Source: Polyangiaceae bacterium (GTDB taxonomy: Bacteria; Myxococcota_A; Polyangia; Polyangiales; Polyangiaceae). Taken from it: 56,388 bases of DNA. The position numbers and the translations under genes are program-made. Position 1 is the stretch's first letter; each line of letters begins with the position of its first letter. This document shows positions 5,379-46,742 of the stretch, piece after piece. Under the pieces are notes generated by a model, which had not been told where the DNA came from, did no database searches, and saw nothing but the letters and a program-made list of their open reading frames with translations. The DNA lies in NCBI GenBank assembly GCA_020848455.1, contig JADLAB010000076.1, forward strand, positions 1 to 56,388, read 5' to 3'.

Positions 5379-6296
5379 CTAGGAGCGCTTCGTGCCGAGA
5401 TTGCTGGGCCGCGCCCGCACCTCGTCGACCAGCGCGAGCAGGGTGGGAGCCGCGATCGGCTTGCGCAGGAACACGAGGCTGCCGCGCGACGCGTCCGAGC
5501 GCACGCCGTCGGCGCTCATGAGCACGAACGGCACCTGCACGTTGCGCGCCCGGACTTCCTGCAACAGCGTCGCGCCGCCGATGCGCGGTAGATCGAGGTC
5601 GCAGAAGACGAGGTCGAACTCCCGCAGGAGCAACAGGGCGAGCGCCTCGGCGCCGTCCGTCGCGACGACGACGTCGCAGCACACCGTGGCGAGGAGCCGG
5701 GCGCAGCCGTTCGCGAACGAGAGATCGTCGTCCACCACCAGCACGCGCACGGTCGGCAGGGTCGCCGCGTGGGGCGGGGGGTTGCTCGGGAAGCGCCGCC
5801 GCACGCCGCTCGGCGGCTTCGGTACCGAGCGGATCCCCTCGAGCTCCGGCTCGAAACCCGGCTCGCGGCTCGCGTCGCGCTCCGGCTCGAAGTCCGGCTC
5901 GCCGCTCGCGTCGCGCTCCGGCTCGAAGTCCGCGGTGCGCTCCATGAGGCAGCGGTCGACGAGCTCGAGCAGCTCGCGCTCGCTGCCCGGTCGCAGGAAG
6001 GCCTGCACCTGACAGGGCACGGTTCCCGCCGGGGGAAGCACGGGCAGCGGGTCGCCGGTGAGCGCCACGAGCGAGCGTGCCTCCGCCAGCGTGCCGAGGC
6101 GGTGGAGCGCCGCGACGTCGCTCTCGCTCGCCGACGGGTGGACCACCGCCACCTCGAAGCGCCAGCCGTCGGCGGCCGCCTCGCAGCACTCGCTCGTGCT
6201 GCGAATGGCACGCGGCTCGTGGTTGCGCCGCAACAGGGCACGAACCCACGACCGCGTGACCAGGGCATCGCTGCCGACGATGAGGACACGCGCCAT
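5379..6296 (-). CDS. Tandem-receiver response regulator, first receiver degenerate
   Basis: A 305-residue protein with two CheY-like domains and no output domain. The C-terminal receiver (about residues 182-298) has the acidic cluster DDD (189-191), phosphoacceptor Asp233 in CDLDLP, Ser261 and Lys279, so it should be phosphorylatable. The N-terminal domain (about 1-118) has the receiver-like alternation of strands and helices but lacks the acidic pocket: VGSD replaces VDDD and VVHPS stands where the phosphoacceptor should be. It is therefore a pseudo-receiver. A linker of charged 12-residue repeats (123-151) joins them. The ATG at 6296 is chosen because the receiver-like fold begins immediately. 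It lies 96 bp downstream of mutS2 and a strong hairpin separates them, so it may be transcribed separately. No cognate kinase is adjacent. Confidence 0.85.
   Translation of the reverse strand: MARVLIVGSDALVTRSWVRALLRRNHEPRAIRSTSECCEAAADGWRFEVAVVHPSASESDVAALHRLGTLAEARSLVALTGDPLPVLPPAGTVPCQVQAFLRPGSERELLELVDRCLMERTADFEPERDASGEPDFEPERDASREPGFEPELEGIRSVPKPPSGVRRRFPSNPPPHAATLPTVRVLVVDDDLSFANGCARLLATVCCDVVVATDGAEALALLLLREFDLVFCDLDLPRIGGATLLQEVRARNVQVPFVLMSADGVRSDASRGSLVFLRKPIAAPTLLALVDEVRARPSNLGTKRS
5844..5930 (-). repeat. 36-bp in-frame tandem repeat (receiver linker)
   Basis: Two full units and one partial unit of a 36-bp repeat encode DFEPERDAS-type 12-mers (residues 123-151 of the response regulator). 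The copies are nearly identical at the DNA level, which suggests recent slippage expansion. Confidence 0.8.
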
Positions 6297-6347
6297 GCGA
6301 ATTGTCTCAGGGTCGAGAGTACGCGCGATCAGGTCACCCGCGCAATC

Positions 6348-6391
6348 CCGGTCCCAGGACCGGCGCACGCGCCGTCCGGGGGTGCGCCGGT
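6348..6391 (-). terminator. Strong hairpin pair after mutS2
   Basis: Directly after the mutS2 stop, 10-bp perfect arms (6359-6368 and 6382-6391, ACCGGCGCAC/GTGCGCCGGT) enclose a 13-nt loop. An overlapping perfect palindrome CCGGTCC-CA-GGACCGG lies at 6348-6363. The two hairpins share 6359-6363, so they are mutually exclusive. No T-tract follows. Transcription stop or mRNA 3' end protection is plausible. Confidence 0.45.
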
Positions 6392-6392
6392 G

Positions 6393-8909
6393 TCAGGCGC
6401 GCAGCCACACCACCGTGAAGGCGTCGCCCCCCTCCTCGATCGCCGCCGGGCGCAGGGCGGCGACGCGGGGGTGGGTCGCGAGGTGCTCGCGCAGGGCGTT
6501 CCGGAGCGCGCCCGTGCCGTGGCCGTGGAGCACGAAGGCCGCTGCCTCGCCGGCCCGCGCGCAGTCGTCGAGGAAGCGCTCGAGGTTCGCGATGGCCTCG
6601 TCCACGCGCTGGCCGCGCAGATCGCAGGTGGCGGAGCTCGTGCGGACCATGCGCGCCGTCGTGTCGGCGCGGGCGCTCGTCGACGCGCCGCTCGGGGCCC
6701 GCTCCTTCGCCTGGCGCTCGCGCGCGGCCCGCGCCGCGCCGCCCGCCGTCCGCTGCGCCGCGCTCGGCGTCGCGAGCTCGCCCACCGGCACCCGCAGGGT
6801 GAAGGCGCCGGCCTTCACCTCGACCTGTCCCCGCTCGGGCGCAGACACGACCTCGGCCACCGCACCGAGCCGCGCGACCCAGACGCGCGCGCCCGGTCGC
6901 AGGGCCGGAGCGTCGACCGGGCGCCGCAGGGCGGCGTCGTCGGCGCGGAGCGCGCGCCCGACCTTGCCGTCGATGCCGACGAGGCGCGCCTCCTCGTCCA
7001 CGCGGCGTTCGGCGGCGCGGAGCCGCTCGGCCACGGCCGGATCGCGCGCCGCGCTCCCGAGCTCCTCGACGAGCGCGCGCAGCCGGAGGCGCGCCTGCTT
7101 CACCTCCCCGTAGAGCTTGCCGGAGGCACGCGCCAGCTTCTCGCGCTCGCGCGTGCGCACGGCCGCGCGCTCCTCTTCGAGCTCGGCGCGGAGCGCCGTC
7201 GCCGCCGCGCGCTCGGCCTCCGCGGCGGCGCGCTCGGCCTCGAGCCGGTGGCGCTCCTGCTCGAGCTCGCGCACCAGCCGCTCGCGGTCGCGCGCCGGGC
7301 CGGACAAGAGGGTGCGCGCGCGCGTGACCACCTCGGGCGGCAGGCCGAAACGCGTCGCCACCTCGAGCGCGCTCGACGCGCCGGGGGCGCCGAGCGCGAG
7401 GCGGAAGGTCGGCAGCATGCGCTCGAAGTCGAAGCCGACGGCGGCGTTGGCGAAGCGCGGATCCGTGGCCCCGAGCTCCTTCAGCCGCTCGTGGTGGGTC
7501 GTGACGGCCACGGCCGCGCCGCGCTGGAGCAGCGTCTCGAGCACCGCCACGGCGAGCGCGGCGCCCTCCTCGGGGTCGGTGCCGCCGGCCGCCTCGTCGA
7601 GCAGGACGAGGACGCGCGGCGCGGCGCGCCCGACGATGCGGCCGAGGTTCGCCACGTGGGCGCTGAAGGTCGAGAGCGACTGCGCCAGCGACTGCGCGTC
7701 GCCGATGTCGCTCAGCACCTCGTCGAAGAACCCGATGTGCGACTCGCGCCGCGCCGGCACCGGCACGCCGGCGCGCGCCATCCAGGCCGCGAGGCCCAGG
7801 CACTTGAGCGCCACGGTCTTGCCGCCGGCGTTCGGCCCCGAGACGACGAGCGCCTGGCCGGAGCGGAGGGCGAGGTCGTTCGGCACCACCTCGACGCCCC
7901 GCGCCACGAGCAGCGGGTGGCGCATGCCCTCGAGCTCGAGCCGGGGCTCGGCGTCCGGCACGAAGACGACGGCGCGCGTCGCGGCCGCGTACTGGCAGAG
8001 CGCCGCGAGCACGTCGGCGCGCACGCAGGCCTCGAAGGCCTCGGCGAGCGGCCCGGACAGCGCCTGCACTTGCCGGCACAGCTCGCGCAGCACGCGCTGC
8101 TCCTCGCGGCTCACCTCGCTTGCCGCGAGGGCGAGCTCGTTGGCGAGCTCGGTGATCTCGGGCGGCTCGACGTAGAGCGTGACGCCGGTCGCGCTCGTGC
8201 CGAGCACGATGCCGGGCACGGAGCGGTGCGAGTCGGCCCGAACCGGCAGGCCGTAGCGCCCGTCGCGCTCCACCGGCCCCGCGTCGCGCAGCACGTCGGC
8301 GTAGCGGGCGCACAGGCGCGCGAGCTCGCCCTGCATGCGCTGGCGCAGCTTGCCGACGCGCCGGCGCGCGTCGCGCAGGCCGACCGAGGCGGCGTCGCTC
8401 ACCCGGCCGTCGGGCTCGAGCGTGCGGTCGAGCTCGGCGCGGAGCGCTGCGAGCGCGGGGCTCGAGCTCACGGCGGCGCCGAGGGCCGGCCGCTCGACCG
8501 CCTGCGCGCGCGCCCAGGCGCGGAGCTCGTCGGCGTACGCGAGGACGATCGCCACGCGGCGCAGCTCGTCGCCGCGCGCCTCGCCACCGCGCGCGATGCG
8601 GGCCGCGAGCTCCTCGACGTCCGGGAACGCCCGTGCGGGCAGGCCCGCGCCGACGTCGAGCGCATCGAGCGCCTCGCGGGCGAGCTCGGCGCGGGCGACG
8701 GCCTCCGCGAGCGTGGGGGCGGGGCGCAGGCTCCCGAGGCGCTTGGCGCCGCGCTCGCTCTGACAGCGCGCGGCCAGCGTGTCGCAGAGCCACGGCCACT
8801 CGAGGTCGGCGGCGGTCTTGCGGAACGCCTCCTCGGCGCCGCCCACGGCCGCGGCCGCCGGCTCCCGATCTCGCTCGCGTGCCACGATGGTCTCGCTGGT
8901 CTCTGTCAT
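6393..8909 (-). CDS. mutS2: Endonuclease MutS2 (MutS-like ATPase with Smr domain)
   Basis: An 838-residue protein with the full MutS2 layout: N-terminal coiled core, ABC-type ATPase, long charged coiled coil and C-terminal Smr domain. Walker A is GPNAGGKT with Lys364. Next come the STFSAH signature, Walker B with LLDEAAGGTDP (the usual form is DELGAGTDP) and TTHHERLKEL. The Smr domain (about residues 765-838) contains CDLRGQRVDEA and LHGHGTGALR, which carry the DLHG-type and HGxG motifs. MutS2 is linked to suppression of homologous recombination and, in Firmicutes, to rescue of collided ribosomes. ATG at 8909 has GGGAG upstream; an alternative GTG lies at 8927. A TAGGCT element at 8955-8960 could be its -10. 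Confidence 0.93.
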   Translation of the reverse strand: MTETSETIVARERDREPAAAAVGGAEEAFRKTAADLEWPWLCDTLAARCQSERGAKRLGSLRPAPTLAEAVARAELAREALDALDVGAGLPARAFPDVEELAARIARGGEARGDELRRVAIVLAYADELRAWARAQAVERPALGAAVSSSPALAALRAELDRTLEPDGRVSDAASVGLRDARRRVGKLRQRMQGELARLCARYADVLRDAGPVERDGRYGLPVRADSHRSVPGIVLGTSATGVTLYVEPPEITELANELALAASEVSREEQRVLRELCRQVQALSGPLAEAFEACVRADVLAALCQYAAATRAVVFVPDAEPRLELEGMRHPLLVARGVEVVPNDLALRSGQALVVSGPNAGGKTVALKCLGLAAWMARAGVPVPARRESHIGFFDEVLSDIGDAQSLAQSLSTFSAHVANLGRIVGRAAPRVLVLLDEAAGGTDPEEGAALAVAVLETLLQRGAAVAVTTHHERLKELGATDPRFANAAVGFDFERMLPTFRLALGAPGASSALEVATRFGLPPEVVTRARTLLSGPARDRERLVRELEQERHRLEAERAAAEAERAAATALRAELEEERAAVRTREREKLARASGKLYGEVKQARLRLRALVEELGSAARDPAVAERLRAAERRVDEEARLVGIDGKVGRALRADDAALRRPVDAPALRPGARVWVARLGAVAEVVSAPERGQVEVKAGAFTLRVPVGELATPSAAQRTAGGAARAARERQAKERAPSGASTSARADTTARMVRTSSATCDLRGQRVDEAIANLERFLDDCARAGEAAAFVLHGHGTGALRNALREHLATHPRVAALRPAAIEEGGDAFTVVWLRA

Positions 8910-35442: not shown

Positions 35443-35751
35443 GGTAAGACAGAGTTACCGCGAGGCTGCGAACCACGTCAAGCGCCCGCCGGCGCGCAGC
35501 GGCGCGCATGCGGCCGCGCCCGCAGGCCGCGCGGGCGAGCGCCGGCGAGCACGATCGCGACGTCCGCTGGCGGCTCCCATCCCGGCCGGCGCCGCAAGAC
35601 GCCGGCCCGGCTCGCGTTTCCATGAGGAGGCCCCACGACCGCCCGGCGTCCACGCCCGGTCGGTCACGGTCTCGCGGACCGCCGCCGTCGATTCCGAGGA
35701 AGCTTCGGGGCAGGCAGCCGGTTGTCGAACAGCCAGCCAAGGGAGAACGCG
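35443..35751. other. 309-bp divergent intergenic region
   Basis: Between the Cys-rich lipoprotein gene (minus) and the epsilon-like gene (plus). TAACTC on the minus strand (35452-35457) is a possible -10 for the lipoprotein. The middle part is GC-rich and I see no convincing ORF, RNA gene or repeat. Confidence 0.4.
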
Positions 35752-36057
35752 ATGCAACGACCCCACGATACCCGGCAGCTGCGGCTCGTTTTGCGAACGC
35801 CGTACCAGCTCGTGCTCGATCTGCCCTCGCGCCGCGTGTCCGCGGCCGCCCGCCACGGACGCCTGTCGATCGAGCGCGGCAGCGCGCCGGTGCTCGACTC
35901 GCTCGTGCCGGGCGACCTCTTCATCGAGGCGGCCGACGGGAGCGAGGCGCGCATCCCGGTGGGCTGGGGGTTGCTCACCTGGGACGGCAGCGAGCTCCGG
36001 ATCACGGTGAGCGAGGCCGAGCTCGAGCACGTGCGCACGCTGCCGCTCGCGGTCTAG
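35752..36057 (+). CDS. Orphan ATP-synthase epsilon-subunit-like protein
   Basis: A 101-residue protein whose whole length fits the N-terminal beta-sandwich of F1 epsilon: LRLVLRTPYQLVLDLPSRRV corresponds to the strand that normally reads MKLxIVTPEGxVF, followed by RHGRLSIERGSAPVLDSL and a GWGLLTWDG strand. The C-terminal helical hairpin of AtpC is short or absent. No other ATP synthase gene is in the window. GGGAGA lies 6 nt before ATG 35752; an upstream TTG (35722) is less likely. It is 68 bp upstream of recC on the same strand. It may serve a stand-alone or alternative F-type ATPase elsewhere in the genome, or have taken a new role. Confidence 0.7.
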   Translation: MQRPHDTRQLRLVLRTPYQLVLDLPSRRVSAAARHGRLSIERGSAPVLDSLVPGDLFIEAADGSEARIPVGWGLLTWDGSELRITVSEAELEHVRTLPLAV

Positions 36058-36112
36058 CCCGAGAAGAGCACGCCCCGGGCTGGCGCGGCGAGCCGCGCGG
36101 CGGGCTTTGCGC

Positions 36113-36118
36113 TATCGC
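36113..36118 (+). promoter_or_regulatory. Putative -10 (TATCGC), leaderless recC start
   Basis: TATCGC lies 7 nt before ATG 36126 of recC. There is no Shine-Dalgarno sequence. Confidence 0.3.
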
Positions 36119-36125
36119 GGCAGCC

Positions 36126-39100
36126 ATGCAGCGCGCGCCTCGCCCGAGTGCGGTGCCCGCCACGGTGACCGTGGTGCGCTCGAACCGCCTCGAGCGGCTC
36201 GCCGACGCGCTCGCGGACGTCGTGCGCGAGCCGCGGGGCGGGGTGCTCGCGGGCGAGTGCATCGTCGTGCCGGGGCGCGCGCTCGCCGTGTGGCTCGGGC
36301 GCGAGCTCGCGAACCGCCTCGGGGTGTGGCTCGGCGGCGACTTCGTGTACCCCCGCAACTTCGTCGAGCGCGCGCTCGGCGCCGTGCTCGGCCCAGCGAG
36401 CCCGAAGGAGCGGAGCTTCGAGGCCGAGCGGCTCGCCTGGGGGCTGTTCGATCTCTTGCCCGAGCTGTGGCACCGGCCGGAGCTCGGGCTCCTGCGGCGC
36501 CATGCCGAGACCGACGAGCGCGGGCGCTTCGAGCTCGCGGGCGCGCTCGGGCGGCTGTTCGACCGCTACCTCGTCTTCCGGCCCGACATGCTGCGCGCCT
36601 GGGAGCGCGGCGACGATCGCAGCGCGGCGACCGAGCCGTGGCAGCCCCTCCTGTGGCGGGCGCTCGTGGCGCGCTTCGGCGACCGGCATCCCGCCGCGCT
36701 CGAGCCGCGCTACCTCGCGGCGCTCGCCGCCCCCGCCGGCCTCCCGCCCGAGGTCGCGGCCGCCCTGCCGCCGCGGGTGTCCTTGTTCGTGCCGACGAGC
36801 CTGCCGCCGCTCTACGTGCGCGTCGTCGCCGCCCTCGCGCGCCACGTCGAGGTCCACGCCTTCTTCCTCTCGCCGTGTCGGGAGCACTGGACCGAGGCGT
36901 GGCGCGGCGCGGCGGCCGAGCCGCCGCCCGAGCACCACCCGCTGCTCGCGTCGCTCGGCCGCACCGGCGCCGACTTCGCGGAGCTCTGGCAGGAGGAGCT
37001 CGAGCGGCTCGAGGTCGGCGAGCAGGAGCCGCTCGACGCGCACGAGGAGCCGGCGGGGACGAGCCTGCTCGCCGAGCTGCAGCGCGATCTGCTCCTCGGA
37101 CGACCCCCACCGGGCCCGCCGGGGACGCGCGCGGCGGACGGGTCGGTCGCGCTGCACGCCTGCCACGGACCGCTGCGCGAGGTGGAGGCGCTCCACGGCG
37201 AGCTGCTCCGCGCGCTCGGCGACGTCGACGCGCCGCTCGAGCCGGGCGACGTCGGCGTGCTCGTGAGCGACCTCGAGACCTACGGCCCGCTCGTCGACGC
37301 CGTGTTCGACCGCGACCGGCACGACCCGACCTTCATCCCGTACCGGGTGGCGGGGCGCGCGACGCGGCGCGAGTGTCCGGTGGCCGACGCGCTCGTGCGC
37401 CTGTGCGCGCTCGCGCGGGCGCGCCTGACGGCCTCCGAGGTGCTCGACTTCCTCGCCCTCGAGCCGGTGCACCGCGCCGCGGAGCTCGCGCCCGCGGAGC
37501 TCGAGACCGTGGCGCGCTGGGTGGAGCAGTGCGGCATCCGCTGGGGCGTCGACGCCGCGCACCGCGCGGCGCACGGCCAGCCCGCGAGCCACGCGAACAC
37601 CTGGCGCTTCGGGCTCGAGCGCCTGCTCGTGGGCCACGCGCTGCCGCCCGCCTCGGGCGCGCTCTTCGGGGGCGTGCTCGGCCACGACGTCGGCGAGGGC
37701 GATGCCGCGGACCTGCTCGGGCGCTTCGCCGGCTTCGCCGAGCGGCTCTTCGGCTGGCTCGAGCGCCTGCGCGGGGCGCGCGCGCTCGCGGCGTGGCGCA
37801 CCGACCTCGGGCTCGCCGCCGAGCTGCTCCTGTGGGGCGACGGCGACGGCTGGCAGCACGAGCTCGTGCGCCGCGCGCTCGCCGCGCTGGCGGACGACGC
37901 CGCCGCGGCGGGCTGCGACGCGCCCTGCGGTCTCGAGGTGGTCGAGAGCGCGCTCGGCGCCGCGCTCGACCGCGCGCGACCCGACCCCGGGCCCTTCGGC
38001 GGCGGTGTGTGCTTCGGCACGCTCGGCGAGCTCGCGGCCGTGCCCTTCGAGGTCGTGTGCCTGCTCGGCTTCGGCGCGGGGCAGTTTCCGCGCCGCCCCG
38101 CCGAGCTCGCCTTCGATCTCTGCGGGCATCCCGCGCGGCGCGGCGACCCCGACGTCGGCCACGAGGACCGCTACCGGCTGCTCGCGGCCGTGTGCGCGGC
38201 GCGCCGGCGCCTGTGCGTGACCTACACCGGGCAGAGCGCGCGCGACGACGCCAACCTGCCGCCGGCGAGCCCCATCGTGGGCCTCGAGGCCGCCGCGGCC
38301 GCCACGACGGCGCTCGCGCTGCGCCACCCGCTCCAGCCCTGGAGTCGGCGCTACTTCGACGGTAGCGACGCGCGGCTCGCGAGCTTCGAGCGCGTCCACC
38401 TCGAGGGCGCGCGCGCGGCGTGCGCGCCCCCGCGCCCCGCGCCGCCCTTCTTCTCCGGCGCGCTGCCCGCCCCGCGCGCGGCGGACGCGCCGGTTTCGCT
38501 CGCGGAGCTCCTGCACTTCTTCCGCGGCCCGGCGCGCTACCTCTTCGAGCGCGTGCTCGGCGTCGAGCTGCCCGACGTCGACGACGCGCCGGAGGACCGC
38601 GAGCCCCTGGCGCTCGACGCGCTCGAGGTGCACCGGCTCGGTGCGCGCGTGCTCGAGCACCGCCTCGGCGGCGTGGGCGAGCACGAGAGCGAGATCCTGG
38701 CGCGCGCCGCCGGCCTCCTGCCGCCCGGGGCCGCGGGCGTCGGCGAGCACCGCGCGGCGTACGCACGGGCCCGGGCGATGCAGCAGGCGCTCGAGCCGTC
38801 GCGGCGCGCGCCGGCACGTCCGCCGCTCGTGCTCGACCGCGTCACGCCGTCCGGCGTGCGCCTGGTGGGCGCGCTCGACGGCGTGTGGGGCAGGGGGCTG
38901 TCGTTGTGTCGCCACGTGCGCGTCGGCGGGCGCGAGTGGCTCGAGCTGTGGCTGCGCCACCTGTGCCTGTGCTGGGTCGAGCCCGGCGGCCCCGGGCCCG
39001 AGAGCGTGCTCGTCGCCCGCCCCGCCTCGGACGAGGCGGGGCAGGTCGCCCGCCTGCGCCTGGGTCCGGTCGAGGCGCCGGCCGCGCGGCTCGACGAGCT

Positions 39101-39449
39101 CGTCGCCCTCTTCCGCTCGGGCTCGAGCGCGCCGCTCGAGCTGTTCCCGACCGCGAGCCTGCACTACGCCGAGCGCGTCGCCCGGGACGGCGAGCCGAGC
39201 GCGGCGCTCGCGTCGGCGCGCGCGCTCCTGCGGCGCCCGGCGCGCGAGGGACAGGCGGCGGGGGAACTCGTCGCCGGCTACACCGCGCGCGCCTTCGGCG
39301 CGGGCTACGAGCCGGCCGAGCGCTTCGCGGAGCTCGCGCTCGCGGTCTTCGGGCCACTGCTCGCGTGTGCCGAGCCCGACCCCGGCGCCGGGCTCGGTGG
39401 CGACGCCGGCGCCGGCGCAGAGGGGGCCGACGATGACCGGGCGCCGTGA
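36126..39449 (+). CDS. recC: RecBCD subunit RecC (exodeoxyribonuclease V gamma)
   Basis: A 1107-residue subunit that recognises Chi-like sequences and holds the split DNA strands. The N-terminal part is typical: VVRSNRLERLADALA, IVVPGRALAVWLGREL and WLGGDFVYPRNFV. Further on come LHACHGPLREVEALH, the fragment FVPTSLPPLYVRVVAALARH and PFEVVCLLGFGAGQFPRRP. Like other RecC proteins it has helicase-fold remnants without functional ATP motifs. ATG 36126 is the first start at the family N-terminus. It overlaps recB by 17 bp, so translation is coupled. Order recC-recB-recD is the usual bacterial operon order (E. coli has ptrA inserted). Confidence 0.95.
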   Translation: MQRAPRPSAVPATVTVVRSNRLERLADALADVVREPRGGVLAGECIVVPGRALAVWLGRELANRLGVWLGGDFVYPRNFVERALGAVLGPASPKERSFEAERLAWGLFDLLPELWHRPELGLLRRHAETDERGRFELAGALGRLFDRYLVFRPDMLRAWERGDDRSAATEPWQPLLWRALVARFGDRHPAALEPRYLAALAAPAGLPPEVAAALPPRVSLFVPTSLPPLYVRVVAALARHVEVHAFFLSPCREHWTEAWRGAAAEPPPEHHPLLASLGRTGADFAELWQEELERLEVGEQEPLDAHEEPAGTSLLAELQRDLLLGRPPPGPPGTRAADGSVALHACHGPLREVEALHGELLRALGDVDAPLEPGDVGVLVSDLETYGPLVDAVFDRDRHDPTFIPYRVAGRATRRECPVADALVRLCALARARLTASEVLDFLALEPVHRAAELAPAELETVARWVEQCGIRWGVDAAHRAAHGQPASHANTWRFGLERLLVGHALPPASGALFGGVLGHDVGEGDAADLLGRFAGFAERLFGWLERLRGARALAAWRTDLGLAAELLLWGDGDGWQHELVRRALAALADDAAAAGCDAPCGLEVVESALGAALDRARPDPGPFGGGVCFGTLGELAAVPFEVVCLLGFGAGQFPRRPAELAFDLCGHPARRGDPDVGHEDRYRLLAAVCAARRRLCVTYTGQSARDDANLPPASPIVGLEAAAAATTALALRHPLQPWSRRYFDGSDARLASFERVHLEGARAACAPPRPAPPFFSGALPAPRAADAPVSLAELLHFFRGPARYLFERVLGVELPDVDDAPEDREPLALDALEVHRLGARVLEHRLGGVGEHESEILARAAGLLPPGAAGVGEHRAAYARARAMQQALEPSRRAPARPPLVLDRVTPSGVRLVGALDGVWGRGLSLCRHVRVGGREWLELWLRHLCLCWVEPGGPGPESVLVARPASDEAGQVARLRLGPVEAPAARLDELVALFRSGSSAPLELFPTASLHYAERVARDGEPSAALASARALLRRPAREGQAAGELVAGYTARAFGAGYEPAERFAELALAVFGPLLACAEPDPGAGLGGDAGAGAEGADDDRAP

Positions 39450-42400
39450 CGATCCCGCCGGCGCGACGCCGCTCGAGCCCTTCGTGCTCGGGGCGGTCGA
39501 TCTCGCGGTCGGTGGGCTCATCGAGGCGGGTGCGGGCACCGGCAAGACGCACGCCATCACGAGCCTGTTCGTGCGCCTGCTCATCGAGCGCGAGCTCGCC
39601 GTCGACGACATCCTGGTCGTCACCTTCACCGAGGCCGCGACGGCGGAGCTGCGCAGCCGCCTGCGCCAGCGGCTCGCCGAGGCGCTCGGCTTCGCGCAGG
39701 CGGCGCTCGCCGCGCGCTCCGGCCCGGAGGCCGCCGCCGGGCCGTCCGCCGCGGGCGACGACGAGCTCGGCGCGTGGCTCGCGGCGCGCGGAGCCGCGCT
39801 CGCCGGGGACCGCCACCGCCTCGCGACCGCCCTCTACGCGATCGACCGCGCCAGCGTCTTCACCATCCACGGGTACTGTCAGAGGCTGCTCGCCGACAGC
39901 GCGCTCGTCGCGGGGGTGCCGCTCGCCTTCGAGCTCCTGGCCGACACGGTGCCACTCTCGGACGAGCTCGTCGCCGACTTCTTCGCGCACGAGCTCAGCG
40001 CCGCCGAGCCGTGGCGCGCGGAGCTGCTGCGCCGCGAGAAGCTCGGCCCGGCGCGCTGCCGAGACCTCGCGCTGCGCGTCCTCGCGGACCCGGAGCTGCC
40101 GGTCGTGCCGTCCGCCCGCGGCGAGCGGCCCGACTTCGGGGCTTGCGCCCGGGCGCTCGGCGCCGCGCGGGCCGCGTGGCGGCGGGCCGAGGTGGAGCCC
40201 CTGCTCCGCTCACCGCCGCTCCAGAAGCGCTCGGTGACGCACGCGCGCGAGGACTGCGACGAGCTCGACGCCTGGTATGCGGCCGGCACCGCCGATCCGG
40301 ACGGCGACGCGCCCGTCGAGTGGCTCGCGCCGCGCTACCTCGAGGACCGGCCCGACGCCTTCACACGCCTCCGCCCCTCGAGCCTCAAGGTCCTCAAGGG
40401 GCAGCGCCTGCCCGAGCACCCCTTTCTCGACGCCTGCGAGGCGCTCGGCGCGGCGCGCGCCGCGCTCGCGCGCGCGCTCGACGACGTGCTCGTCGACGTG
40501 GAGCAGCGGCTCGTGGCCCACGTCCGCGCGACCCTGCCGGCGCGGCTCGATCGCGAGCGCGTGCTCGGCTTCGACGATCTCTTGGTGCGGGCGCGCGCGG
40601 CGCTGCGCGCGGACGGGGCGCGGCGCCTGCACGGCGCCCTCGCGCGCCGCTACCCGGCGGCGCTCGTCGACGAGTTCCAGGACACGGACCCGATCCAGCT
40701 CGAGATCTTCTCCGAGATCTACGGTGCGGGCCGCGGCGCGCTCTTCTTCGTCGGGGATCCGAAGCAGGCGATCTACTCGTTTCGCGGCGCCGACGTGCAG
40801 AGCTACCTCGAGGCCCGCCGCCGGGCGCCGCGCCGTTACGGGCTCGCGGTCAACCGCCGCAGCGACGCCGCGCTCTTGCGGGCCTTCGGCGCGATCTTCG
40901 GCCGGCCCGCGCGCCCCTTCGTCGAGGCCGGCATCGCGCTCGGCGCCCTCGCGCCGCGGCCCGGCGCTCCCGAGGCGACCTTCGCGGCGACGGCTGCCGC
41001 GCCGCCCGGGGCGCCGCTCGAGATCCTCTTCCTGCGCCGCGCGCCGGGGGAGAAGTTCCTCGCGGGTGACACGGCGGCGCTCGCGGCGCTCGTGGCCGGC
41101 GAGCTCGCCGCACACTTCGCGGCCGGTGCGCGTCTCGGGTCGACCCCGCGCGGGTCGACCCCGCTCGGGCCGGAGCACTGCGCCGTGCTCACGCGCACGA
41201 ACGACGAGGCCTTCGCGGTGCAGGTCGCGCTCGCGGCCGTGGGGATCTCGGCCGCCGTGCTCGGCGACCGCAGCGTGCTCGCCAGCCCCGAGGCCACGGA
41301 CCTCGCGCGCATCCTGCGCGCCGCGCTCGAGCCCTCGCGCCTCGGCGCCGCGCTCACGAGCGAGCTGTTCGAGGTGACGGCCGCGGATCTCGCGGTGGGG
41401 CGCGCGAGCGCGGAGCTGGCCCGCCTCGGCGAGCGCTTCCGCGTCTGGGCCGCGAGCTGGACGAGCCGGGGCTTCGTGCGCCTCGCCCGCGCGCTCGTCG
41501 CCGAGGTGGAGCCGCGGCTGCTCGCGCGTCCCGACGGCGCCCGGCGGCTCACGGACCTCGTCCACCTGTGCGAGCTGTGCCACGCCGCGGAGTCGCGCCT
41601 GCACCTCGGCCCGGCGGCGCTCGTCGCCTGGCTCGAGCGCGAGATCCACGCGGCGCGCGGGCCGACGCGGCGCGAGGACGCGCAGCTGCGTCTCGACCGC
41701 GACGGCGCCGCCGTGCGCGTCACGACCGTGCACCGCAGCAAGGGCCTGGAGTACCCGGTCGTCTACCTGCCCTTCGGGGGGCTCACGCCAGGCGCGCACA
41801 AGCCGCGCGGCCCCGTGCTGTTCCACGACCCCGAGGACGGAGCGCGCTTGAAGCTCGCCCTCGACGTGGGGGGCGGCGCGGACCGCGCGCTCGTCGCGCG
41901 CGAGCGGCTCGCCGAGGGCGTGCGCCTGGCGTACGTCGCGCTCACCCGGGCGCAGCATCGCGTGTCGCTCGTGTGGGGTGCCTTCAAGGGTTTCGAGAAG
42001 ACGCCGCTCGCCCACCTCTGGCACGCGCCCGCCGCGGGTGAGGAGCCCGGCGCTGCGCTCGAGGCGCGGGTGCGCAGCCTCGACGACGACGCGCTCCTCG
42101 CCGCGCTCGGGGCGATCGCGGCGACGGCGCCTGGCGCCATCGAGGTGCGCGAGCTCGCGGCCGGGCCGCGGGCGGCGCCGCCCCCGGCCGCCGTCGCGCC
42201 GGAGCCGCCCGTGCTCGCGGCCCTGGCCGCCGTGCGCCGCGACCCCGGGGCGCGCACGGCGAGCTTCTCCGAGCTCGTGGCCTCGCCCGGGCGCGGCCCC
42301 GCGCTCGGCGAGCTCGGTGCGCTCGCCGATGGGCGCGACCGCGACGAGCTCGATGCCGCCCCGGCGCGCACCGTGCGCGGCGCGCCGGCCGCGGGCGGGA

Positions 42401-43257
42401 CCGCGGTACCGCTCGCCGCCTTCCCGCGCGGACCGCGCGCCGGCAGCTTCTTCCACGAGCTGCTCGAGCGCCTCGACTTCGGCGCCGAGCTCGACCGCGG
42501 ACCGAGCGCCGAGCTCGTCTCGGAGCTCCTGCTCGCGCACGGCCTCCTGCCGGTCGCGACCCACCGCGAGCCCGTGTGTCGCGCGCTCGCCGCCGTGCTC
42601 GGGACCGAGCTCCGGCCGGGCCTGCGCCTCTGCGACGTGCCGCGGGGCGCGCGCCGGAGCGAGGTCGAGTTCGTCGCACCGGTCGGACGGCGCCGCCCCC
42701 CGGCCGAGGGCGCGCAGGTCTGGCTGCTGCCCGAGGCGCGCGCGCCCGGCGTCGGGGCCGCGGCGCTCGCGCGCGCGCTCGCCGACCACCCGAGCGAGGC
42801 CGTGCCGCCGAGCTACCCGCGGGCGCTCGCCGGGCTCGGGTTCGCGGCGCTCCGCGGCCACCTCAAGGGCTACGTCGATCTGCTCTTCGAGCACGACGGC
42901 GCGGTGTACCTCGTCGACTACAAGTCGAACCACCTCGGCGACGACTTCGACGACTACGCGCCCGCCGAGCTCCGCGTCGCGATGGCCGAGGGCCACTACT
43001 ACCTGCAGTACCACCTCTACGCGCACGCGCTCGACCGCCACCTCGCCCTGCGTCACGGCGCCGCCTACGACTACGAGCGGCACTTCGGCGGGGTGCTCTA
43101 CCTCTTCCTGCGCGGCATGAGCCCCGAGCGCGGCGCCGCGACCGGCGTGTTCTGGGAGCGGCCGCCCCTGCCCCGCATGCGGGCGCTCGCCGACCTCATG
43201 TCGGCGGCCGAGCGCGGCGCGGCGCGCGGCCGCGGCCGGGGAGGCGGTCGCTCGTGA
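39433..43257 (+). CDS. recB: RecBCD subunit RecB (helicase-nuclease)
   Basis: A 1274-residue 3'-5' helicase and nuclease. UvrD/RecB helicase motifs are present: EAGAGTGKT (residues 31-39), VTFTEAATAELRSRLR, IHGYCQRLL, DEFQDTDPIQ, VGDPKQAIYSFRGAD, TVHRSKGLEYPVV and YVALTRAQHR. The C-terminal nuclease keeps His1008, Asp1149 (GYVDLLFE), Asp1162 and Lys1164 (LVDYKSN), matching the E. coli catalytic residues. The enzyme resects double-strand breaks and degrades foreign linear DNA. A small in-frame repeat (GSTPRGSTPLG) sits near the middle. It overlaps recC by 17 bp and recD by 4 bp. Confidence 0.96.
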   Translation: MTGRRDDPAGATPLEPFVLGAVDLAVGGLIEAGAGTGKTHAITSLFVRLLIERELAVDDILVVTFTEAATAELRSRLRQRLAEALGFAQAALAARSGPEAAAGPSAAGDDELGAWLAARGAALAGDRHRLATALYAIDRASVFTIHGYCQRLLADSALVAGVPLAFELLADTVPLSDELVADFFAHELSAAEPWRAELLRREKLGPARCRDLALRVLADPELPVVPSARGERPDFGACARALGAARAAWRRAEVEPLLRSPPLQKRSVTHAREDCDELDAWYAAGTADPDGDAPVEWLAPRYLEDRPDAFTRLRPSSLKVLKGQRLPEHPFLDACEALGAARAALARALDDVLVDVEQRLVAHVRATLPARLDRERVLGFDDLLVRARAALRADGARRLHGALARRYPAALVDEFQDTDPIQLEIFSEIYGAGRGALFFVGDPKQAIYSFRGADVQSYLEARRRAPRRYGLAVNRRSDAALLRAFGAIFGRPARPFVEAGIALGALAPRPGAPEATFAATAAAPPGAPLEILFLRRAPGEKFLAGDTAALAALVAGELAAHFAAGARLGSTPRGSTPLGPEHCAVLTRTNDEAFAVQVALAAVGISAAVLGDRSVLASPEATDLARILRAALEPSRLGAALTSELFEVTAADLAVGRASAELARLGERFRVWAASWTSRGFVRLARALVAEVEPRLLARPDGARRLTDLVHLCELCHAAESRLHLGPAALVAWLEREIHAARGPTRREDAQLRLDRDGAAVRVTTVHRSKGLEYPVVYLPFGGLTPGAHKPRGPVLFHDPEDGARLKLALDVGGGADRALVARERLAEGVRLAYVALTRAQHRVSLVWGAFKGFEKTPLAHLWHAPAAGEEPGAALEARVRSLDDDALLAALGAIAATAPGAIEVRELAAGPRAAPPPAAVAPEPPVLAALAAVRRDPGARTASFSELVASPGRGPALGELGALADGRDRDELDAAPARTVRGAPAAGGTAVPLAAFPRGPRAGSFFHELLERLDFGAELDRGPSAELVSELLLAHGLLPVATHREPVCRALAAVLGTELRPGLRLCDVPRGARRSEVEFVAPVGRRRPPAEGAQVWLLPEARAPGVGAAALARALADHPSEAVPPSYPRALAGLGFAALRGHLKGYVDLLFEHDGAVYLVDYKSNHLGDDFDDYAPAELRVAMAEGHYYLQYHLYAHALDRHLALRHGAAYDYERHFGGVLYLFLRGMSPERGAATGVFWERPPLPRMRALADLMSAAERGAARGRGRGGGRS

Positions 43258-45119
43258 GCACGGGTCGCGCCCCCGCCACGTGCGCCGAGCTCTGCGCCCG
43301 GCTCGAGGCCTCCGGGAGCTTCGAGCCGCTGGCGCTCGCGCTCGCGGTCACGCTCGGCCGCGTCGCCGGTTCGGTCGCGGTGGCTGCCGGCGCGGCGCTC
43401 GCGGCGCGCGCGGTCGCGCTCGGACACGTGTGCGTGGATCTCGCGACGCTGCCCGAGCTCGAGCCCGAGCTCGATGCGCTCGTCGGCGGCGGACCGGCGC
43501 TCGCCGCCGCGCTCGTGCGCGAGGGGGGCGCCGCGCCGGCCGCACGGCTCGACGCCTGGCCCGCGGCGGCGCTCGCGCTCGACGGCGCCGGCCGGCTCTA
43601 CCTCGCGCGCTACGCCCACTACCAGGGGGTGCTCGCGCGCGCGCTCGCGGGCCGGCTCGGGTGGCACGCCCCCGGGCCCGACCTCGCGCTCCTGCGCCGC
43701 GGTCTCGGGCGCCTCTTCGTCGGCGAGTCGCTCGCGGGCCAGCGCCTCGCGGCCGCGACGGCGCTCGTTGCGCGGCTCACGCTCGTCGCCGGCGGTCCGG
43801 GCACCGGCAAGACGACGACCGTGACGCGCGTGCTCGCGCTCGCCGTGGAGCAGGCGCTCGCGGCGGGCAGGCCGCCGCCCCGCGTGCTGCTCGTCGCGCC
43901 CACCGGCAAGGCGGCCCAGCGCCTGGGGGAGGCCGTCGCCCGGGGCCTCGCGGAGCTCGACTGCGCGCCCGAGGTCGCGGCGGCGCTCGCGCCCGAGGCG
44001 CGCACCATCCACCGCGCGCTCGGCCCGCGGAGCCGCACGCCGGGTCGCTTCGTCCACGACGCCGAGCACCCGCTCGCCTGCGATCTGCTCGTGTGCGACG
44101 AGGCGTCGATGGTCGATCTGGCGCTCCTCGCCAAGCTCCTCGCCGCCGTGCCCGCGACGGCGCGCGTGGTGCTGCTCGGCGACCCGGATCAGCTCGCCGC
44201 GGTCGACGCCGGGGCGGCCTTCGCCGATGCCTACGCGGCCCTCGCCGGTCCCGAAGCGGACGACGCGGCGGACGACGACGGCGCCACCGAGGCGCTGCTC
44301 GCGGCCTGCGCGGCCGGCGCGCCCTTCGCCGCGCCGCGCGCGGCCGTGCGCCTCCGGCGCGCCCAGCGCTACGCGGAGACGAGCGGCATCGCGGCGCTCG
44401 CCCGCGCCGTCCGCCGCGGCGACGCCCCCGAGGCGCTGCGCGTGCTCGCGGACGGCCCCGACGTGGCGCTGCGTGAGCTCGGCCCCCGCGCCCTCGGCCG
44501 GGCCCTCGACGAGCTCGCGACGCGCGACGTCGCGCCCTACCTCGCGGCGCGCGCGCCGGGACCGCGCCTCGCCGCGCTCGGGCGCTTTCGCCTGCTCTGC
44601 GCCCATCGCCGCGGCCCCGCCGGCGTCGCCGACGTCAACCTGCGCGTCGAGCGCGCGCTCGCACGCTCGGCCGGTCTCGCTCCGCGCGGCCGGCTGCACT
44701 ACGACGGCCGACCGCTGCTCGTCACGCGCAACGACTACCGCATCGAGCTCTACAACGGCGAGCTCGGCGTCGAGGCCGTGGGCCCGGACGGCGTGCTCGG
44801 CGCGTTCTTCCCGGCGTCGAGCCCCGAGGCCCCGCCGCGCGCGCTGCCGCTCGAGCGCCTGCCCCCCCACGAGACGGCGTTCGCGATGACGGTCCACCGC
44901 AGTCAGGGCTCGGAGTTCGAGCGGGTGGCCCTCGTGCTCCCGGAGCGTACGTCGCAGCTCGTCAGCCGCGAGCTCGTCTACACCGCGGTGACGCGCGCCC
45001 GTCGCTCGCTCGTCGTGCTCGGGAGCGCGGCGGCGCTCTGCGACGCGCTCGGCCGGCGCTCGGTGCGACAGTCGGGGCTCGGGGACGCGCTCGCCGACGC
45101 GCGCGCCGATGAGGGTTGA
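43254..45119 (+). CDS. recD: RecBCD subunit RecD (5'-3' helicase)
   Basis: A 621-residue superfamily 1B helicase. Walker A GGPGTGKTT includes Lys186. VCDEASMVDLALL is motif II, LLGDPDQLAAVDAG motif III, and TVHRSQGSEFERV with YTAVTRARRSLVV motifs V-VI. The start is GTG 43254, overlapping the recB stop (GTGA). Length is close to E. coli RecD (608), so this is RecD1 and not the longer RecD2. Its 3' end overlaps the next gene by 11 bp, binding that gene into the recCBD operon. Confidence 0.95.
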   Translation: MSTGRAPATCAELCARLEASGSFEPLALALAVTLGRVAGSVAVAAGAALAARAVALGHVCVDLATLPELEPELDALVGGGPALAAALVREGGAAPAARLDAWPAAALALDGAGRLYLARYAHYQGVLARALAGRLGWHAPGPDLALLRRGLGRLFVGESLAGQRLAAATALVARLTLVAGGPGTGKTTTVTRVLALAVEQALAAGRPPPRVLLVAPTGKAAQRLGEAVARGLAELDCAPEVAAALAPEARTIHRALGPRSRTPGRFVHDAEHPLACDLLVCDEASMVDLALLAKLLAAVPATARVVLLGDPDQLAAVDAGAAFADAYAALAGPEADDAADDDGATEALLAACAAGAPFAAPRAAVRLRRAQRYAETSGIAALARAVRRGDAPEALRVLADGPDVALRELGPRALGRALDELATRDVAPYLAARAPGPRLAALGRFRLLCAHRRGPAGVADVNLRVERALARSAGLAPRGRLHYDGRPLLVTRNDYRIELYNGELGVEAVGPDGVLGAFFPASSPEAPPRALPLERLPPHETAFAMTVHRSQGSEFERVALVLPERTSQLVSRELVYTAVTRARRSLVVLGSAAALCDALGRRSVRQSGLGDALADARADEG

Positions 45120-46209
45120 CAGCGCCCGACGTTGGGACGCGAGATCGGGTCATCTGGTGAGCCCGCGAGGCTCGGGAGACCGCCGCTTGCTCTACCGACT
45201 CGACCCGCAACGGCCCGCGCTCGGACCGCTCGAGCTCGCGCGCGACGAGGCCGACGACGGCGCCACCCGTGCCGCGCTCGCCGCGTCGTTCGAGACGCTC
45301 TTCAGGCCCGGCCGGCTCGGCCCGCCCGTCGTCGTGGCGCGGCGTCCGGCCCACCCCCTCGACGCCAGCAGCCTCCTCGTGGGCGTCGACGCCGAGGCGC
45401 GCCTGCTCCTGCTCGCCTGCACGAGCGCGTGGGCCGACCGCGGCCTGCTCGAGCAGCTGCTCGACGGGGCCGCGACCTACGGCGAGGACCCGTACCGGCG
45501 CCTGCTGCAGGACTGGAGCGAGGGGGGCGGGCACGCCGAGTCCTTCCTGCCGAGCCTGCGCGCCCTGTGCGACGATCCGGAGCTGCGGCCCGAGGACGTC
45601 GCCCGCGACCACGTGCTCGTCGTCGCCGGTCCCGGGCGCGACGGCAGCTTCCAGAAGATCGCCGATTTTCTCGAGCGTCGCGGCGTGCTCGTGTGCTTCG
45701 CCCCGGTGCGCAGCTACCGGGCGCCGGACGGCCAGCGTCTCGTCGAGGTGCCGACCGTCGATCTGTCGCGCGGCTACCCGACCGAGTACGGCGGCGAGGA
45801 CGAGCGCAGCTGGCTCGTCGTGCTCGACGAGGCCGGCGGGCACCGCCGCTTCCTCGAGCACCAGGTGGCCGCGGTGTGGGGCCACGCCGACGGGCCGGCG
45901 GTGCTCGACCAGGGCGTGCAGCCCGGCGACGTCGTGTACGCCTACGAGCTCGGCGTCGGCGTGGTGGCGCGCGGCATCGTGATGGACCACGAGATCCGCT
46001 GCGCCCCGCCCGGCGAGGGCGTCTTCCCCGCGTGCCAGGACGGCAACGAGTGGCAGCTGCGCGTGGAGTGGATCGTCGTGCCGGGCAAGCAGCCGCTGCG
46101 CCACTCGGAGGTGCGCCGCAACGCCGGGGCCGGGCTGCCCGTGCGGACGCCCTTCGGACGGCTGTGGCGTGCCGAGGTGGGCCGCGTGCTCGCGCGCCAC
46201 TGGGAGTGA
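45109..46209 (+). CDS. Nuclease-like fold (catalytic residues lost) with C-terminal EVE/PUA-like domain
   Basis: A 366-residue soluble protein translationally coupled to recD (11-bp overlap, ATG inside the recD end). Residues about 40-215 resemble PD-(D/E)xK nuclease-type proteins. LLVGVDAEARLLLLACT (89-105) aligns with the usual D...ExK strand, but ExK is replaced by Ala-Cys-Thr; HVLVVAGPGRD and DFLERRGVLVCFAPVRSYR (187-204) match the later strand-helix part seen in DUF91-like nucleases. Residues about 232-366 look like an EVE/PUA-like domain: SWLVVLDEAGG, QPGDVVYAYELGVGVVARGIV and WQLRVEW. EVE domains often read modified bases in DNA. The domain calls rest on pattern memory only, so they need profile searches. 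No signal or membrane span. Confidence 0.6.
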   Translation: MRVDSARRWDARSGHLVSPRGSGDRRLLYRLDPQRPALGPLELARDEADDGATRAALAASFETLFRPGRLGPPVVVARRPAHPLDASSLLVGVDAEARLLLLACTSAWADRGLLEQLLDGAATYGEDPYRRLLQDWSEGGGHAESFLPSLRALCDDPELRPEDVARDHVLVVAGPGRDGSFQKIADFLERRGVLVCFAPVRSYRAPDGQRLVEVPTVDLSRGYPTEYGGEDERSWLVVLDEAGGHRRFLEHQVAAVWGHADGPAVLDQGVQPGDVVYAYELGVGVVARGIVMDHEIRCAPPGEGVFPACQDGNEWQLRVEWIVVPGKQPLRHSEVRRNAGAGLPVRTPFGRLWRAEVGRVLARHWE

Positions 46210-46280: not shown

Positions 46281-46736
46281 ATGCGCGGCACGCTCGGCAT
46301 CGTCGCGGCCCTCGGCCTGTCCTTCGCCGGCACGGCCTGCGGCTCGAAGGAAGAGACCGACCCACCCCCGATCCAGTTCGGCAAGCAGGCGCCGGGCGGC
46401 CCCGCGCAGCGGACGGCCGCGCCACCGGCCCAGCCCCCGGCGGCCCAGCCCCCGCCCGCCCAGCCCCCGGCCGCGACGCCCGATCCGGGCACGCCCGCTC
46501 CCACGTCGCCCGGCGCGCCCCCGCCCGACGCCGGCGCCCCGGCGCCGAGCGACGCGGGCGTGCAGGATGCGGGCGGCGACGCAGCAGCACCGGACGCGGG
46601 CGGCGGCGCGCAGCAGGGTTGCCTCGCGCGCTGTCAGTCCGCGGCGCAGACCTGCGCCCTGCCGAAGCTCGGGCAGCTGCCCGACCCGGCGAAGTGCCAG
46701 GCCGCGTTCGAGAGCTGTCGCAAGGCGTGCTTCTGA
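46281..46736 (+). CDS. Proline/alanine-rich lipoprotein with C-terminal Cys motif
   Basis: A 151-residue lipoprotein. The lipobox is GTAC (Cys20). Residues about 40-115 are low complexity: PPAQPPAA-type repeats, then acidic Asp/Ala/Gly stretches. The C-terminal 40 residues carry four Cys (CLARC, CALP, CQAAF, CRKAC pattern), probably two disulphides. It starts 71 bp after the EVE-like gene. Codon use matches the neighbours. Function is unknown; a long linker holding a small disulphide domain away from the membrane is a reasonable reading. The heptad repeat array begins just after its stop. Confidence 0.75.
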   Translation: MRGTLGIVAALGLSFAGTACGSKEETDPPPIQFGKQAPGGPAQRTAAPPAQPPAAQPPPAQPPAATPDPGTPAPTSPGAPPPDAGAPAPSDAGVQDAGGDAAAPDAGGGAQQGCLARCQSAAQTCALPKLGQLPDPAKCQAAFESCRKACF

Positions 46737-46742
46737 GTGAGT

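Follow-up and report, generated by a model that had tools for sequence, protein, structure and literature searches.

A putative non-cutting member of the EVE-PD-(D/E)XK proteins lies 3' of recCBD in one genus of Polyangiaceae

The gene that follows recCBD in a draft genome of a Polyangiaceae bacterium (9.2 Mb, 742 contigs) probably specifies a member of the EVE-PD-(D/E)XK proteins, of the PDC-S11-like, NucS_C-type kind, that has lost catalysis and now serves as a putative non-cutting reader of modified bases; we give this reading a probability of roughly 0.65. The gene was studied in a contig of 56,388 nt (JADLAB010000076.1), which was analysed as a whole and is called the window here. The nuclease-like domain has lost its catalytic residues and the protein is conserved, and the simplest account of this combination is therefore a protein that would bind and not cut DNA.

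recC, recB and recD are genuine genes that overlap each other and are followed 3' by an open reading frame in the same direction, as the preliminary description had proposed and as sequence, Pfam and NCBIfam confirmed (Table 1). The start of recC at 36126 is the one chosen in that description and lies within an open reading frame of 35508-39449. The ATG of recB at 39433 sits 17 nt inside recC, the stop codon of which is at 39447-39449, and the GTG start of recD lies on the recB stop codon (GTGA, 43254-43257). RecB retains both the Walker A motif GAGTGKT and the nuclease motif VDYK.

Table 1. Features of the recCBD locus and of the downstream gene in the window.
Feature	Position	Strand	Basis or remark
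recC	36126..39449	+	Pfam Exonuc_V_gamma 6e-71, RecC_C 1e-41
recB	39433..43257	+	Pfam; Walker A and nuclease motif kept
recD	43254..45119	+	TIGR01447, 412 bits, above cut-off
Spacer between recD and the nuclease-EVE-like gene	45120..45186	+	67 nt
Shine-Dalgarno-like GGGAG (about 45174-45178)	45172..45178	+	8 nt 5' of TTG 45187
Nuclease-EVE-like gene, predicted catalytically dead	45187..46209	+	340 aa from TTG
Nuclease-like domain, residues 1-202 of 340	45187..45792	+	PDC-S11 homology; match to NucS 2vld
Leu63 codon (Leu89 when 366 aa are read), where the catalytic Asp would stand	45373..45375	+	Alignments
Ala77-Cys78-Thr79 codons (103-105 when 366 aa are read), where E-x-K would stand	45415..45423	+	Alignments
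EVE-like domain	45793..46206	+	49-53% identical to the domain of active relatives

The downstream gene almost certainly starts at TTG 45187. In the intact homologues of G088 and G582, genomes of two other genera, the initiator Met aligns exactly with the residue encoded at this position (MLYHF), and the Shine-Dalgarno-like GGGAG in front of it recurs as GGGAGG in the sister species (G401, JACRDA010000471.1, labelled as a Myxococcales MAG and counted as one with L004). The preliminary description had the gene start at ATG 45109, giving 366 aa and an 11-bp overlap with recD. This start was rejected: it has no Shine-Dalgarno-like site, residues ahead of residue 27 of the 366-aa reading show no convincing homology, and in the sister species a 1-nt insertion between the two candidate starts breaks the frame from 45109. 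The start at 45187 therefore leaves a protein of 340 aa that begins past the recD stop without overlap. No terminator-like and no sigma-70 promoter-like match was found when the spacer was scanned, and because no terminator-like match was seen, co-transcription with recCBD is plausible. Tight translational coupling to recD is not plausible. The lack of overlap, the 67-nt spacer and an adjacency seen in just two genomes of a single genus do not bear out the view that the recCBD operon carries this gene as a coupled fourth member.

An open frame in GC-rich DNA has little weight alone. That this one is a real gene and not a chance frame is shown by homology and by purifying selection (see below). 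The homologue in G088 (P0005), from another family of the same phylum, is 39% identical over its full length (E=6.6e-70) and keeps an intact PD...ECK, and the homologue in G582, from the same family as the window, was found with a profile at E=7.8e-132 and has an intact D...ECK. Both match PDC-S11, a candidate anti-phage single-gene family of PADLOC (models PDLC04909-04916), with E=4.8e-18 and 2.5e-21, respectively (PDLC04916). The window protein itself matches PDC-S11 directly at no better than E=0.018-0.023, and alone it gives no Pfam match. When profiles of the window group and of PDC-S11 proteins (Myxococcota, Deinococcus) were compared by hhalign, the probability was 98.6% (E=1.4e-15) over 290 columns covering both domains, so that the order of PDC-S11, with the reader domain after a NucS_C-type nuclease domain, is found with full-length homology. 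The profile of the PDC-S11 proteins in turn matched the archaeal nuclease NucS (2vld) across the catalytic region with E=1.5e-4. PDB matches of the nuclease-like region such as that to manganese catalase (E 0.017) were judged to be due to chance; they had no motif support and were lost when profiles were used.

The alignment with these homologues confirmed what the preliminary description had read from the sequence, namely a PD-(D/E)xK fold with Ala-Cys-Thr at residues 103-105 (366-aa reading) in place of ExK. The relatives carry the motif (P/A/I)D...(I)E(C/L)K and the window and sister species L...A-C-T, so that the exchanges D to L, E to A and K to T are present in both genomes of the genus and the catalytic D...(D/E)xK of PDC-S11 and of the EVE-PD-(D/E)XK proteins is replaced by L, A and T. 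ExK is kept by every other aligned homologue. The alignments thus predict a loss of catalysis. An enzyme that stays active through a relocated or unusual active site is highly improbable: the acidic residues Asp59, Asp68, Glu70 and Glu89 (340-aa form) are nearby, but no Lys is near the site (the 340 aa hold 2 Lys), the strand that should bear the Asp has no acid, and in both species A-C-T occupies the ExK strand. PDC-S11-like matches can accordingly include proteins that appear catalytically dead, a warning that holds even if the neighbourhood of recCBD is accidental. The nuclease part of PDC-S11 seems to be joined to varied readers; a protein in genome G051 (L010:1381-2277) carries the PDC-S11-type nuclease with a RAMA reader (Pfam 6e-24) instead of EVE.

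The C-terminal domain is probably EVE-like, as judged from profile comparisons. Identity to the G088 and G582 proteins is 49-53% over the C-terminal 136 residues versus 33-37% over the nuclease-like part. Compared with canonical EVE domains by hhalign, the probability was 52% (E=1.4e-4), and relatives of the domain from a wider set matched Pfam EVE (PF01878, PUA superfamily) at E=0.0018-0.004, short of the curated cut-off, which neither the window protein nor its relatives reached. The EVE assignment of the preliminary description thus has some support, weaker than that for the loss of the active site, and the window protein itself has no Pfam match. Weak collinear PDB matches were obtained to the HNH endonuclease chain 6yex (E about 1), which we take to be the EVE-HNH enzyme VcaM4I. 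AlphaFold models, made with the window and sister sequences as the only input, were unusable (pLDDT 34.7 for the whole protein and 36.5 for the EVE part). The same EVE-like domain was also observed with a ribbon-helix-helix region in small plasmid proteins (L049:311-916, AP026483.1; about 147 plasmid records), several of them annotated as ribbon-helix-helix; the plasmids, from Klebsiella, Escherichia and others, range from 2.7 kb to conjugative.

The estimate of selection comes from a single pair of species, that of the window and its sister, between which the gene differs by 55 substitutions, 34 synonymous and 21 non-synonymous. When the same changes were placed at random in 2000 simulations, 40.0 ± 3.1 non-synonymous changes were expected, and none of the simulations was as low as the 21 observed. 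The deficit was strongest in the nuclease-like part (10 versus 24.6 expected, 0/2000 simulations as low) and was weaker in the EVE-like part alone (11 versus 15.2 ± 1.9 expected, 50/2000). dN/dS of the gene (0.028/0.141) is close to that of recD (0.037/0.150). From the non-synonymous deficit it is therefore concluded that the dead enzyme is maintained as a protein. A defence gene that is decaying into a pseudogene is correspondingly improbable; the loss of all catalytic residues, the TTG start, the patchy distribution and the sister species' 1-nt insertion shortly before the gene would fit such a remnant, but from 45187 to the end neither species has a stop or frameshift, and 36 of the 55 substitutions fall on third positions (p=2e-6). 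The nuclease-like domain evolved at roughly twice the rate of the EVE-like domain, on the branch to the genus as well as between the active relatives G088 and G582; since the rates differ in the same way between active relatives, no relaxation of the nuclease-like domain by the loss of catalysis is visible.

Taken as a non-cutting reader, the protein would descend from a cutting enzyme of the genus ancestor, putatively a modification-dependent restriction enzyme, in which the lineage would have replaced all three catalytic residues, with purifying selection persisting on both domains. It would probably be transcribed by read-through from recCBD and translated separately. Most likely it would bind DNA at a modified base through the EVE pocket and mark or occupy the site without cutting, and it may act alone or, more speculatively, through the putatively co-transcribed RecBCD. 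If the protein is indeed such a reader kept by selection, nature would here have made a sensor or regulator out of a defence nuclease, and the protein could serve at once in tests of whether modification reading can be joined to RecBCD.

Full-length matches were confined to the window genome (G000) and G088 in a protein search of 379 genomes of the phylum, and to G000, G401 and G582 in a profile search of 318 genomes of the class. Matches in G016 (E=7.6e-4, 50 aa, internal stop), G230 (E=0.003) and G379 were not counted as full-length relatives. A scan of genome contigs gave nothing beyond the sister species, viral contigs scanned with the protein, its relatives and the domains gave no match, and none was found in phage records. 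Within the family, the gene follows recD at 2 of 30 recD loci, those of the window and G401, and is absent from the other 28 examined. Adjacency to recD is one event in one genus, and linkage to RecBCD across independent lineages was not found. The synteny survey thus showed no conservation beside recD outside the genus, a finding that the preliminary description itself had named as refuting its proposal.

This distribution bears on two readings of the neighbourhood. According to the first, which we consider somewhat better than an even bet, a former defence gene landed after recD and was kept for a role unrelated to RecBCD, as a regulator, decoy or reader of RNA modification. The relatives lie in varied places: in G582 (complete, one contig of 14.6 Mb) the intact copy stands alone among unrelated genes, and in that genome no RecD of the RecBCD type passes the cut-off of the family, a RecD2-like helicase being all that was found; in G088 the intact copy and recD are on different contigs, and the copy lies beside a TmtA-type ATPase. 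Genes downstream of recD are generally not conserved across the family. A precedent for such co-option is PcdA of Staphylococcus, which derives from an EVE-containing restriction family and was recruited for cell division (PMC10602043); it differs from the window protein in being an AAA+ McrB protein and in acting in cell division. Against a chance neighbour, the gene is common to both species at the same place, and no alternative pathway was identified.

According to the second reading, which is unlikely though it keeps a real share, the dead reader would attach to modified (foreign) DNA or to RecBCD itself and would load, stimulate or restrain the nuclease of that complex, RecB supplying the cutting that the reader has lost. 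Both genomes of the genus have the gene on the same strand, 67 nt past recD, with no terminator-like match in between, and loss of catalysis coincides with the position next to recD, the intact copies being unlinked. Defence systems such as Gabija watch RecBCD, and systems that respond to its inhibition exist (PMC12904381). Opposed to this are the single evolutionary event, the 28 family recD loci that lack the gene, a spacer and a ribosome site of the gene's own, where recC, recB and recD overlap, and the literature searched, in which no RecBCD-linked modification reader or RecBCD-EVE pair was found. A RecBCD link is hinted at by where the gene lies and by its inactivation having gone along with its relocation, and both rest on that single event. 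The fuller scenario, in which a type IV restriction-like enzyme became a cutting-dead modified-base reader working with RecBCD and letting RecBCD respond to base modification, is more doubtful again. The RecBCD link, which held most of the interest of the preliminary description, is specific to one genus and unproven.

According to that description, no RecBCD accessory protein of this form is known to have been described. In the literature searched this holds for the pair; the architecture itself is already known, being listed as PDC-S11 and reported among EVE-PD(D/E)XK fusions, which were proposed to be modification-dependent or type IV restriction enzymes, EVE domains reading modified bases (Bell, Wolf, Koonin 2020, PMC7641849). 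What is new is the catalytically dead state. The window protein shares with PDC-S11 the domain order and full-length homology and differs in its lack of catalytic residues and its weak direct match; with the putative type IV enzymes it shares a nuclease-like and an EVE-like part in one chain, but its nuclease site appears dead and its gene follows recCBD. VcaM4I uses its EVE domain to flip the modified base into a pocket (PMC7897488). This enzyme likewise joins an EVE-type reader to a nuclease-type domain; it is, however, an active HNH enzyme with the reverse domain order. Archaeal NucS/EndoMS (2vld, 5gke) has the same NucS_C-type nuclease core, but the window protein lacks both the catalytic residues and the N-terminal domain of NucS and is not a mismatch-repair NucS.

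Two neighbourhoods were noted in addition. In G088, a 1459-aa TmtA-type candidate defence protein (L005:6717-11096; PADLOC 1.8e-78, ATPase) has its end a short way upstream of the intact homologue and lies on the opposite strand, and an open reading frame at 5617-6732 nearby looks like a caspase-type protein and has no Pfam match. In the window, a lipoprotein-like gene with Pro/Ala repeats follows at 46282-46740, and the repeats carry indels between the two species.
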